64,000 nt of DNA from Pseudomonadota bacterium (GTDB taxonomy: Bacteria; Pseudomonadota; Gammaproteobacteria; Xanthomonadales; Rhodanobacteraceae). The DNA lies in the NCBI GenBank assembly GCA_021795435.1, contig JAJYPJ010000001.1, positions 106,591 to 170,590 on the forward strand, in the 5' to 3' direction. Shown one piece after another: positions 22,675 through 34,223 of this stretch. The translations under genes were made by a program, and so were the position numbers. Numbering within the stretch: position 1 is the first letter of the stretch; the number at the start of each line of letters is the position of its first letter. A model generated the notes under the pieces. That model did no database searches and was not told the DNA's origin. It was given only the letters and a program-made list of their open reading frames with translations.

Positions 22675-22705
22675 GCAATCCTCGCGGCGGGGAGCAAACT
22701 GCCGC

Positions 22706-22711
22706 ATTGTA
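22706..22711 (-). promoter_or_regulatory. Candidate -10 box for pyrH in its new context
   Basis: TACAAT on the minus strand lies in the 54-nt cbbR-pyrH gap and would give a leader of about 25 nt. The -35 position falls over the end of cbbR and matches the consensus poorly. Confidence 0.35.
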
Positions 22712-22728
22712 GACGACCCGCGCAGGCT

Positions 22729-23676
22729 TTAGTCCGTCGTGAGGCTCGTCCGGGGCAGCAGGGCCGCATCGTGCGCGGCCAGCCACGCCTCGCCCTGTTC
22801 GAGCATGAAATAGCGGAAGGCTTCGGCGGCCGGGGCAAGCTGCCGAGCACTGAGGTGGGCAACGAACCAACTGCGCATGAGCGGTGTCCCGACGACGTCG
22901 AGGACGTGCAACAGGCCGCCTCGCAGTTCCAGGCCGATGGTGTGCAGCGAAAGCAGGCTGACGCCCAGGCCCGCGATGACCGCCTGCTTCAGCGTCTCAT
23001 TGCTCGCGATTTCCATGGCGGGGCGGGCATCCACGTGGTGCGTCGAGAAGAAGTCTTCCAACGCCGCGCGTGTGCCGGAGCCCTGCTCGCGCACCAGCAA
23101 GGGAAACTCCAGCAGGGCAACTGCTGATAGGTGCGGCTGGTGGGTCAGCGGGTGGCCGGAGGGCGCCACGAACACGAGCGGGTGCGCGGCAAATGCCTCG
23201 GCGCGGGTATCAATCTCGCGCGGCGGCCGTCCCATGACGGCCAGGTCCACCTCGCCGCCGTGCAGGAGCGCCACCAGATGCTCGCGGTTGTGCGCCACGC
23301 GCAGCCGCAGATCGATCCCGGGGTGTTCCTGATGGAAGCGGGCCAGCAGCTGCAGCAGGAAGTATTTGGCCGTGCTGACGAACCCGAGCGTCAGGACGCC
23401 TCGATCGAGGCGCTGGAACCGGGCCATGTCCACCTCGGCGGCCTTGTGGGCCGCCAGCAGCCTGCGCGCATGGACAAGGAAGTACTCGCCGGCCGTGGAG
23501 AGATTGAGGCGCCGCTTTTCGCGATCGAACAGACGCAGCCCGACCTGCGCCTCCAGCTCCTTCACCTGCATTGAGACCGCCGGCGGGGTGATGTGCAGGG
23601 CCTCGGCCGCACGCAGCACGCTGCCGTGTCGGGCGACCTCGACGAAGACCCGCAGCTGGCGGAGGCTCAGATTCAC
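22729..23676 (-). CDS. cbbR: LysR-family regulator of the CBB operon
   Basis: CbbR activates cbb operons in response to metabolites such as RuBP or NADPH. The 315-aa LysR-type protein has an N-terminal winged helix-turn-helix (RQLRVFVEVARHGSVLRAAEALHITPPAVS) split as LRQLRVFVEVARHGSV and AAEALHITPPAVSMQVK. Two effector-binding lobes follow from about residue 90 (GVLTLGFVSTAKYFLL). The divergent position beside cbbL is the classic CbbR arrangement. The start is GTG 23676; no in-frame ATG lies just upstream. Because it reads toward pyrH, its transcript may continue into the pyrH-frr string. The assignment as CbbR rests on homology pattern plus context. Confidence 0.94.
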   Translation of the reverse strand: MNLSLRQLRVFVEVARHGSVLRAAEALHITPPAVSMQVKELEAQVGLRLFDREKRRLNLSTAGEYFLVHARRLLAAHKAAEVDMARFQRLDRGVLTLGFVSTAKYFLLQLLARFHQEHPGIDLRLRVAHNREHLVALLHGGEVDLAVMGRPPREIDTRAEAFAAHPLVFVAPSGHPLTHQPHLSAVALLEFPLLVREQGSGTRAALEDFFSTHHVDARPAMEIASNETLKQAVIAGLGVSLLSLHTIGLELRGGLLHVLDVVGTPLMRSWFVAHLSARQLAPAAEAFRYFMLEQGEAWLAAHDAALLPRTSLTTD

Positions 23677-23686
23677 AAATTAAGCA

Positions 23687-23701
23687 TTTCATGAATTGAA
23701 A
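23687..23701. promoter_or_regulatory. Probable CbbR recognition dyad (T-N11-A type)
   Basis: TTTC-N7-GAAA is a perfect dyad and contains the LysR-type T-N11-A motif (TTC-N7-GAA). It overlaps the candidate -35 box. Confidence 0.6.
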
Positions 23702-23723
23702 GACAAGTAAATATGACTTTACT
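23696..23723 (+). promoter_or_regulatory. Candidate sigma70 promoter of cbbLSX operon
   Basis: -35 TTGAAA (23696-23701, five of six to consensus), 16-nt spacer, -10 TTTACT (23718-23723, four of six). The predicted transcript start near 23730 leaves a leader of about 50 nt. Confidence 0.45.
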
Positions 23724-23724
23724 T
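23705..23724. promoter_or_regulatory. Second dyad, possible CbbR activation site
   Basis: AAGTAAA-N6-TTTACTT is a perfect 7-bp inverted repeat whose centre lies about 20.5 bp (two helical turns) from the centre of the first dyad. It covers the candidate -10, a layout like LysR activation sites. Confidence 0.55.
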
Positions 23725-23781
23725 ATTTCATGACGCGCTAAAGAGTGCTCGGCGTCGACATCATCCCTGCGAGAGAGTCCG

Positions 23782-32678: not shown

Positions 32679-32689
32679 GGAGGTGCCCG

Positions 32690-33235
32690 ATGGCCGTCGA
32701 AAGTCCGGCGACGCCCCTTGGCTCGCCGGCCCCTGCCTTCAAGCTTCTCGGCACGGATGGGCGCATGCATGACCTTGCCGAGCTGCGTGGCGAGAAGGGC
32801 ACCGTGGTTGCATTCATTTGCAACCACTGTCCCTACGTCAAGGCGGTGCTGCCGCGCATGGTCCGCGACGCCGTGGAGCTCGCGCCGATGGGCGTTCGCT
32901 TCATCGCCATCAACCCCAACGACGCGGATGCGTATCCCGAGGACCGCTTCGAGCATATGGTCGAAGTGGCGCGGGATTGGCCATTCCCGTACCTGCACGA
33001 TGAGTCGCAGGCGGTCGCGCGTGCATACGGAGCCGTCTGCACGCCTGACTTCTTCGGCTATGGATCGCAGATGGAGCTGCGCTACCGGGGCCGACTCGAT
33101 TCGGGGCGCAAGGCTCTGGTCGCGGAGGCGCCCCGGGAACTGTTCGATGCCATGCGCAGGATCGCGGCAGGCGAGTTGCCGCTGCCGCAGCAGCATCCCT
33201 CGATGGGCTGTTCCATCAAGTGGAAGATCGAATGA
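32690..33235 (+). CDS. Thioredoxin-fold (redoxin/AhpC-TSA-like) protein in the cbb operon
   Basis: A 181-aa cytosolic redoxin: no signal peptide, N-terminal APAFKLLGTDGRMHDLAELR and the redox motif FICNHCPYVK with Cys44 and Cys47 (CxxC). Homologues annotated as thioredoxin family proteins are widespread in bacteria but their partners are poorly defined. It begins 11 nt after fba behind a strong ribosome-binding site (GAGGAGG) and overlaps cbbY by four bases, so it belongs to the operon. A redox-control or oxidant-defence role for the Calvin enzymes is an inference from position only. Confidence 0.85.
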   Translation: MAVESPATPLGSPAPAFKLLGTDGRMHDLAELRGEKGTVVAFICNHCPYVKAVLPRMVRDAVELAPMGVRFIAINPNDADAYPEDRFEHMVEVARDWPFPYLHDESQAVARAYGAVCTPDFFGYGSQMELRYRGRLDSGRKALVAEAPRELFDAMRRIAAGELPLPQQHPSMGCSIKWKIE

Positions 33236-34005
33236 CACCACCTCCGGATCTACGCGCGCTGATCGTCGATGTCGATGGCACGCTGGCCGAAACGGAGCGT
33301 GATGGTCACCGCGTGGCGTTCAACCGCGCCTTCGCCAGTCTGGGCCTCGACTGGGAGTGGGACGTGCTCGCCTACGGTCATTGGCTGCGCGTGCCGGGGG
33401 GACGCGAGCGCCTGCGTGCCTACATCGACGCGCGTGCGGATGCGCCAGCTGGCCACGCCGCGCGCGACGAACTCGCTCGCGCGCTCCATCAATGCAAGAA
33501 CGTCGAATACGCGGCGCTCGTTGAAACGGGCGCGATTGCCGCGAGGCCGGGCGTCCTGCGCCTCCTGGACGAGTGCGCCGAGGAAGGACTCCAGGTGGCC
33601 GTGGCGACGACCACGGGTCGCAGCAACATCGACGCGCTGTTTCCACGCCTGTTCGGCGCGAATTGGGAGGCGCGATTCGCCGCGCTCGTCTGTGCCGAGG
33701 ATGCGCCTCGCAAGAAGCCCGATCCGCTTGCCTACCAGCTGGCCTTGGCGGGCTTGGGTGTCGATTCCGCGCAAGCGCTGGCCATCGAAGACTCACCGGC
33801 TGGGCTAGCCGCCGCCCGCGCCGCGGACGTCCGCTGCCTGGTTACGCGCAGCATGTATTTCGCGGAGGCCGGATTCCCGGGCGCTGTCGCCGTGATCGAC
33901 GATCTCGATGCGCCGCCAAGCTGGCCCGGCGCCGACGGTGTTCGCGTCGGCCTGGGGGCATTGCGGGCGCTGCATCGCTCGGCCAGGCAGGCTTGCCCTG
34001 CCTGA
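33232..34005 (+). CDS. cbbY: CbbY-like HAD phosphatase (xylulose-1,5-bisphosphatase)
   Basis: CbbY destroys xylulose-1,5-bisphosphate, a misfire product that inhibits RuBisCO. The 257-aa HAD protein has VDVDGTLAETERDGHRVAFN (Asp13 nucleophile, Asp15), ATTTGRSN, RKKPDPLAYQLAL and IEDSPAGLAAA, all as in CbbY. ATG 33232 overlaps the redoxin stop (ATGA); the track's earlier GTG adds four residues. It is the last gene of the operon and ends 218 nt before the tsf stop on the other strand. Confidence 0.93.
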   Translation: MTPPPDLRALIVDVDGTLAETERDGHRVAFNRAFASLGLDWEWDVLAYGHWLRVPGGRERLRAYIDARADAPAGHAARDELARALHQCKNVEYAALVETGAIAARPGVLRLLDECAEEGLQVAVATTTGRSNIDALFPRLFGANWEARFAALVCAEDAPRKKPDPLAYQLALAGLGVDSAQALAIEDSPAGLAAARAADVRCLVTRSMYFAEAGFPGAVAVIDDLDAPPSWPGADGVRVGLGALRALHRSARQACPA

Positions 34006-34060
34006 GTCGTCCCGGGGCCCTTGGCCGTTGGCCGGGCACGCGCGGCTGGATTGTCGGAGT

Positions 34061-34126
34061 CGGCGCGATGCCCCGCGCGGGTCGCGGAGCCCGATCGCTC
34101 ACGGAGCGGCGTGGCATCGGGCGCCG
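34061..34126. repeat. Large imperfect inverted repeat at the cbbY-tsf junction
   Basis: CGGCGCGATGCC pairs imperfectly with GGCATCGGGCGCCG across about 40 nt (arms 34061-34072 and 34113-34126). It lies in the convergent cbbY/tsf gap and may be part of a bidirectional terminator or an insertion scar. Confidence 0.45.
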
Positions 34127-34148
34127 GTTGATATGGCGCGCGGTACGG

Positions 34149-34203
34149 CGGTTCCCTGCCTGGGAGCCCGGCAATGCCGGTGAGGCCACGCGCCAGGGAA
34201 CCG
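34149..34203. repeat. Perfect 10-bp inverted repeat at the cbbY-tsf junction
   Basis: CGGTTCCCTG (34149-34158) and CAGGGAACCG (34194-34203) are exact reverse complements, enclosing a smaller palindrome CCGGCAATGCCGG. It lies 20 nt beyond the tsf stop, suiting a tsf terminator stem, but there is no T-tract. Confidence 0.6.
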
Positions 34204-34223
34204 GTATCGAGGTCGATCGTGAT

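Follow-up and report, generated by a model that had tools for sequence, protein, structure and literature searches.

How did a complete operon for the Calvin-Benson-Bassham (CBB) cycle come to lie between tsf and pyrH in a gammaproteobacterium? The question is raised by a 64,000-nucleotide stretch of a Rhodanobacteraceae genome (GenBank assembly GCA_021795435.1, contig JAJYPJ010000001.1, positions 106,591 to 170,590; hereafter the window). Transfer of Calvin-cycle operons is known; the chromosomal place where such an operon settles and the cause of its retention are rarely visible. Among relatives of the window genome the site can be seen empty, filled, holding a decayed remnant and used repeatedly, and a native transketolase has apparently been lost, which offers a testable picture of a heterotrophic lineage accommodating an autotrophy module. 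We consider it probable that a Burkholderiales-type form IC operon inserted between the rpsB-tsf and pyrH units and was kept in one clade, and that the site is a permissive one.

Profile matches confirmed the arrangement given in a preliminary description of this DNA: a CBB gene set occupies the 11.5 kb between pyrH and tsf, and rpsB, tsf, pyrH and frr all lie in order on the minus strand. From low to high coordinate, profile matches and sequence together gave frr, pyrH and cbbR (minus strand), ten plus-strand genes from cbbL to a HAD hydrolase, tsf and rpsB (minus strand), then map and glnD (plus strand). The features are as follows.

Beyond pyrH-frr-uppS, minus strand: cdsA, dxr and rseP, named by position and sequence.
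3′ of pyrH, minus strand: frr and uppS, both profile matched.
21949..22671, minus strand: pyrH, UMP kinase (TIGR02075, E=5e-98; longest frame 21949-22707), first gene of the pyrH-frr-uppS-cdsA-dxr-rseP block.
22706..22711, minus strand: putative -10 box of the pyrH promoter, TACAAT, followed by GCGGCAGTTTG; part of the conserved TAYAAT-N5-GTTTTG element.
22729..23676, minus strand: cbbR, LysR-type regulator and left edge of the insert (PF00126/PF03466; best NCBIfam match NF045990, CbbR, below its curated cut-off).
23782..25257, plus strand: cbbL, form IC (red-type) Rubisco large subunit (NF003252, E=4.5e-237).
25273..25710, plus strand: cbbS, Rubisco small subunit (PF00101, E=1.1e-38).
About 25940..26815 (start approximate), plus strand: cbbX, red-type Rubisco activase (TIGR02880, 515 bits against a cut-off of 459).
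26812..27894, plus strand: cbbF, class 1 fructose-1,6-bisphosphatase (NF006779, above cut-off).
27934..28815, plus strand: cbbP, PRK15453-type phosphoribulokinase (NF011997, 503 bits against a cut-off of 362).
28937..30934, plus strand: cbbT, transketolase (TIGR00232, above cut-off), with no second transketolase found in the window genome.
30931..31623, plus strand: cbbZ, phosphoglycolate phosphatase-like HAD protein (NF009695/TIGR01449, slightly below the cut-offs).
31641..32678, plus strand: cbbA, class II fructose-bisphosphate aldolase (TIGR01521, above cut-off).
32690..33235, plus strand: AhpC/TSA (ResA/TlpA-like) thiol redox protein (PF00578; NF002854 weak).
33220..34005, plus strand: PGMB-like HAD hydrolase, last gene of the insert, convergent with tsf (PF00702/PF13419; TIGR02009 below cut-off).
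34006..34223: intergenic region between the HAD gene and tsf, in which the conserved tsf terminator was not detected.
34224..35102, minus strand: tsf, EF-Ts, end of the rpsB-tsf unit (TIGR00116, E=5e-95).
35182 to about 36069, minus strand: rpsB.
Beyond rpsB, plus strand: map (profile matched) and glnD (named by position and sequence).

The operon encodes form I large and small subunits, a CbbX-type activase and a phosphoribulokinase, as expected of a form IC (red-type) cbb operon, and the nearest solved structures to the cbbL product were 5nv3 and 1bxn. A LysR-type CbbR is encoded divergently, though its match falls below the cut-off of that CbbR model; cbbR is co-directional with pyrH and separated from cbbL by 105 bp. 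The layout of cbbR and ten plus-strand genes thus stood as first described, but two of the ten, the AhpC/TSA-like gene and the second HAD gene, are not classic cbb genes.

The window genome is a metagenome-assembled genome (MAG) of 2.28 Mb in 128 contigs, about 90% complete. Its host is a Rhodanobacter-related member of the Xanthomonadales, and Rhodanobacter-labelled genomes were placed in the same family. A betaproteobacterial host, first suggested by the CbbL matches, was ruled out, as tsf is only ~43-48% identical to that of Burkholderiales. The layout is carried by five genomes of the same genus. It is uninterrupted, with gaps of 11.5-12.9 kb, in G002, G004 and G011, whose pyrH and tsf are 97-99%, 87-89% and 84-86% identical to those of the window, respectively. 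On a single contig it was found in G000, G002, G004 and G011, and across contig ends in G008 and G012. The six operons of this insert clade form a 99/99 group when seven operon proteins other than CbbL are combined, and the clade is also monophyletic for flanking core genes.

CbbL alone proved unsuitable as a marker, being too conserved and recombined within the genus (a single clade of the genus CbbL sequences was rejected, AU p=0.0036), and the other operon genes were used instead. Outside the family, the closest relatives of CbbL come mainly from Burkholderiales, at 85-93% identity. In the tree of the seven other operon proteins, operons of this type from the family group together (100/100) within a mostly Burkholderiales cluster, a gene tree in conflict with the host lineage. 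Since a Xanthomonadales host carries an operon nested in a Burkholderiales-dominated cluster, its horizontal origin is well supported, as first proposed, and the locus is a new instance of an already known phenomenon, horizontal transfer of cbb genes. Chromosomal form IC operons of Burkholderiales (Rubrivivax, Ideonella and related loci) likewise have cbbR divergent from cbbLS, followed by cbbX, F, P, T, Z and A in similar order. Unlike the present locus in a gammaproteobacterium, those examined had neither pyrH nor tsf within the retrieved flanks, except on one contaminant contig, L065, described below. Other Rhodanobacteraceae operons (G230, G249, G251 and G270) belong to the same 100/100 group and share the core gene order, with the terminal HAD gene present in G230, G249 and G270; unlike that of the window, they occupy three or more other sites, with tsf and pyrH adjacent. 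A complete set of CBB genes has been reported for a MAG of the Rhodanobacteraceae, and hence the cycle in the same family as the window's host (PMC9802188). Within the genus itself, G007 (contig C92, L129) and G009 (contigs C31/C151, L133 and L134) carry a clearly different type of cbb operon at another location; the genus has therefore acquired Calvin-cycle genes at least twice.

The edges and composition of the insert agreed with the first description. No integrase, transposase or flanking direct repeat was found at either edge, and the sole tRNA gene of the window lies at 56519. The GC content is like that of the flanks, and the codon usage of the eleven inserted genes did not differ from that of twenty flanking genes (mean score 0.926 against 0.975; Mann-Whitney p=0.21). 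We read this unremarkable composition as the mark of an old event or a similar donor; an old insertion is supported, because the insert is shared by several species and its codon usage is ameliorated.

Comparison with empty sites located the insert relative to transcription signals. In most of them, a hairpin with a T-run (typically AAGGCCGCGG-loop-CCGCGGCCTT) lies ~30-50 nt past tsf, followed by a spacer, the TAYAAT-N5-GTTTTG element, a Shine-Dalgarno-like GGAG and the pyrH ATG. The element occurred upstream of pyrH in 24 of 37 loci, against 0.01 expected from shuffles, and several of the remaining loci had a TAGAAT variant. The tsf hairpin is kept in the insert-bearing G004, G008, G011, G264 and L065, and the -10 box is kept with pyrH in the insert genomes; in the window it begins 17 nt after the cbbR stop codon. 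Because the hairpin stays with tsf and the -10 box with pyrH, the insert appears to sit on the boundary of two transcription units, which terminator and pyrH promoter would separate in most sampled relatives. The earlier suggestion that the module entered an essential translation operon without breaking a gene was therefore half right: no gene is broken, but the site is a boundary between units. The same signals suggest that pyrH most likely starts at 22671, since the longest frame begins with an ATG, at 22707, that is itself part of the -10 box, and the ribosome-binding site, ATG and -10 position are conserved. A comparable boundary is known in Escherichia coli, where a Rho-independent terminator has been described for the tff-rpsB-tsf operon, and where pyrH-frr transcripts without rpsB-tsf are reported together with rpsB-tsf-pyrH-frr read-through transcripts (PMC6131387). 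The boundary is therefore leaky in E. coli; in the window genome, by contrast, such transcripts would enter the convergent HAD gene in antisense orientation.

We propose the following course of events. A Burkholderiales-type form IC operon, with cbbR divergent from cbbLSXFPTZA and two accessory genes, would have entered a Rhodanobacteraceae genome and become fixed between the terminator that ends rpsB-tsf and the pyrH-frr-uppS-cdsA-dxr-rseP block with its own promoter. The conserved sequence marks the boundary; insertion between terminator and -10 box would leave both units transcribable, which is why it would have been tolerated. pyrH probably also receives read-through from cbbR, the HAD gene facing tsf convergently. 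The insert would then have been inherited by one clade of the genus. At least one further insertion at the same boundary probably brought a related operon into a Rhodanobacter lineage, and elsewhere in the Xanthomonadales the boundary takes different genes.

The preliminary description had counted rpsB-tsf-pyrH-frr among the best conserved gene strings, a view that found no support in this order: several Xanthomonadales lineages have other genes at the junction, and tsf and pyrH are apart in every genus member sampled. Among relatives outside the genus in which both genes were found, the tsf-pyrH gap is <600 bp in 64/81 and 0.6-4.5 kb in 16/81, and the genes lie on different contigs in 1/81. 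Ten of the 16 wide gaps are at least 0.9 kb, and the eight of these that were examined all hold genes, which vary from lineage to lineage. Examples of this cargo, with functions named from sequence, are listed here.

G043 and G054: ECF-sigma-like and acyltransferase-like genes.
G026: a three-gene set, partly common to G047.
G060, G071 and G088: a gene of ~520-617 aa.
G037: a 256-aa membrane protein.

The pyrH-frr link is also broken, in 12 of 82 cases, so the tsf-pyrH junction is permissive but not unique. Besides the insert clade, two sequences have a related, identically oriented operon at this junction, both with Rhodanobacter-like flanking genes: the Rhodanobacter-type MAG G264 and L065, a 12121-bp contig with xanthomonad-type tsf and pyrH ends in the MAG of Rubrivivax sp. 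SCN 70-15. A reading of L065 as the layout of Rubrivivax was rejected, as contig C64 of that MAG bears a tsf-pyrH of its own and L065 is a xanthomonad contaminant. The G264 operon groups with those of G249, G251 and G270. A single clade of all operons located at the junction was rejected (AU p=1.1e-8), which makes repeated insertion the simplest reading and the one we favour, the site thus appearing permissive and not used once only, as a related operon and other genes have settled at the same boundary. A broader proposal seems to us quite possible, though short of probable: the Xanthomonadales boundary may be a natural safe harbour, where the terminator and self-sufficient promoter of an essential operon admit large cargo without a dedicated integration system, including an autotrophy operon at least twice independently, and where cargo replacing an essential enzyme such as transketolase is then locked in.

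Several observations weigh against insertion at a permissive boundary as we describe it. No terminator was detected in G000, G002, G005, G006 and G012, nor, by a strict test, in the outgroup G013, and the -10 element is missing from G013 and some other empty sites. The pyrH promoter is predicted from that element only, and a generic scan for sigma-70 promoters and terminators gave matches at chance level and did not call it. The second-lineage cases come from fragmented MAG contigs (two contigs in G264, the contaminant contig in L065). The trees single out no one branch as donor, and the cluster from which the operon would have come also includes a few genomes from outside Burkholderiales (e.g., L041/G105). 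An empty site was seen in none of the genus members sampled, tsf and pyrH lying apart with other neighbours in G001, G003, G006, G007, G009 and G010. The insertion may therefore be older than the genus or may have come after some previous disruption; within the genus, the operon may have arrived at its root or at the base of the insert clade.

These points leave room for other histories. Presence of the operon at this position in the ancestor of several Rhodanobacteraceae genera, with later loss or relocation in most, would explain the same position and orientation in the insert clade, G264 and L065, and the single group formed by the family's operons. The preliminary description had named sharing of the layout by close relatives as a sign of such an ancestral state, and this is so in part: the closest relatives share it vertically, while the more distant ones sampled have an intact empty site. 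We regard this history as unlikely. CbbL was found in only 21 of the 234 family genomes; departure of the operon would have required many precise excisions, each restoring the terminator and -10 anatomy that most of the sampled empty sites retain; and the operons at the junction are not one clade. Moreover, the operon tree places G230 with the genus, whereas the core-gene tree places it (as G102) with Rhodanobacter.

The core-gene tree has the topology ((G003,G007,G009),((G001,G010),insert clade)), with G013 outside. tsf and pyrH are adjacent in G013, as in G102/G230, G103/G249, G251 and G270, which carry a related operon elsewhere. Within the genus, pyrH has gained new divergent neighbours, serC-pheA-aroA-like in G001 (contig C22, L121) and G010 (contig C1, L135) and purT-like in G007 (contig C59, L128); the tsf-pyrH link was therefore broken several times in one genus. 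Such variety gives some weight to a history, to which we grant about one chance in ten, in which other DNA or a rearrangement opened the link in the genus ancestor and the cbb genes came later to an open site: the two genes are separated in all sampled members, next to purT (G007), serC-pheA-aroA (G001 and G010), a gene for a 647-aa protein (G003 and G009) or a NUDIX-like gene (G006), all named from sequence. In the insert clade, however, tsf and pyrH are collinear and close with only the operon between them, and its edges hold no residue of other DNA. Because the clade keeps the two genes collinear around the operon, they had not yet been parted at the time of its arrival. In the basal members of the genus, neither gene was seen to have a cbb remnant beside it.

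Once in place, the operon took part in recombination between species. In the core tree G008 is sister to G011/G012, in agreement with frr and cbbR, and its frr, cbbR and cbbT are closer to G011. Its cbbL, cbbS, cbbX and cbbF, compared over window positions 23782-27894 (against L139, L201 and L137), are 93-98% identical to G004 but only 78-88% to the sister G011, and the affinity switches near the cbbR-cbbL intergenic region. The segment from cbbL to cbbF was thus exchanged in place between species, G008 receiving it from a G004-like donor. With such exchange demonstrated inside the genus, and the same junction and orientation in three lineages, a single tsf-cbb-pyrH cassette might have passed from genus to genus, with the conserved genes on either side serving for homologous recombination. 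This strikes us as improbable: the G264 operon groups 100/100 with Rhodanobacter-type genomes carrying theirs elsewhere, the pyrH/frr and tsf of G264 are Rhodanobacter-like, and one clade of junction-located operons was rejected. As for an assembly or binning artefact, most of the assemblies are MAGs, with frequent contig ends close to the operon (G008, G012 and G264), but the possibility is practically negligible: the layout is not an assembly join, since five genomes of one genus carry it and four genomes show it on uninterrupted contigs, that of G011 being 2.1 Mb long.

Retention of the insert may be linked to its transketolase gene. In searches of the genus, cbbT was the only transketolase match in G000, G002 and G004 (the last 99% complete), whereas G008, G011 and G012 have a second transketolase and the members without the insert have a copy elsewhere. 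With the native enzyme apparently lost, a genome whose sole transketolase gene lies in the operon would hardly be able to dispense with the insert. In G005 (L125:11646-13911), pyrH is adjoined by cbbZ and by a truncated cbbT matched over residues 1-490, the Rubisco genes being gone; this is a decayed remnant of the operon.

Across the family, tsf identity to the window falls into classes of ~80-85%, 72-77% and 61-70%, while pyrH stays near 70-78%, and tsf of some other families is closer to that of the window than tsf of same-family genera, possibly reflecting transfer of tsf or a shift in its rate.

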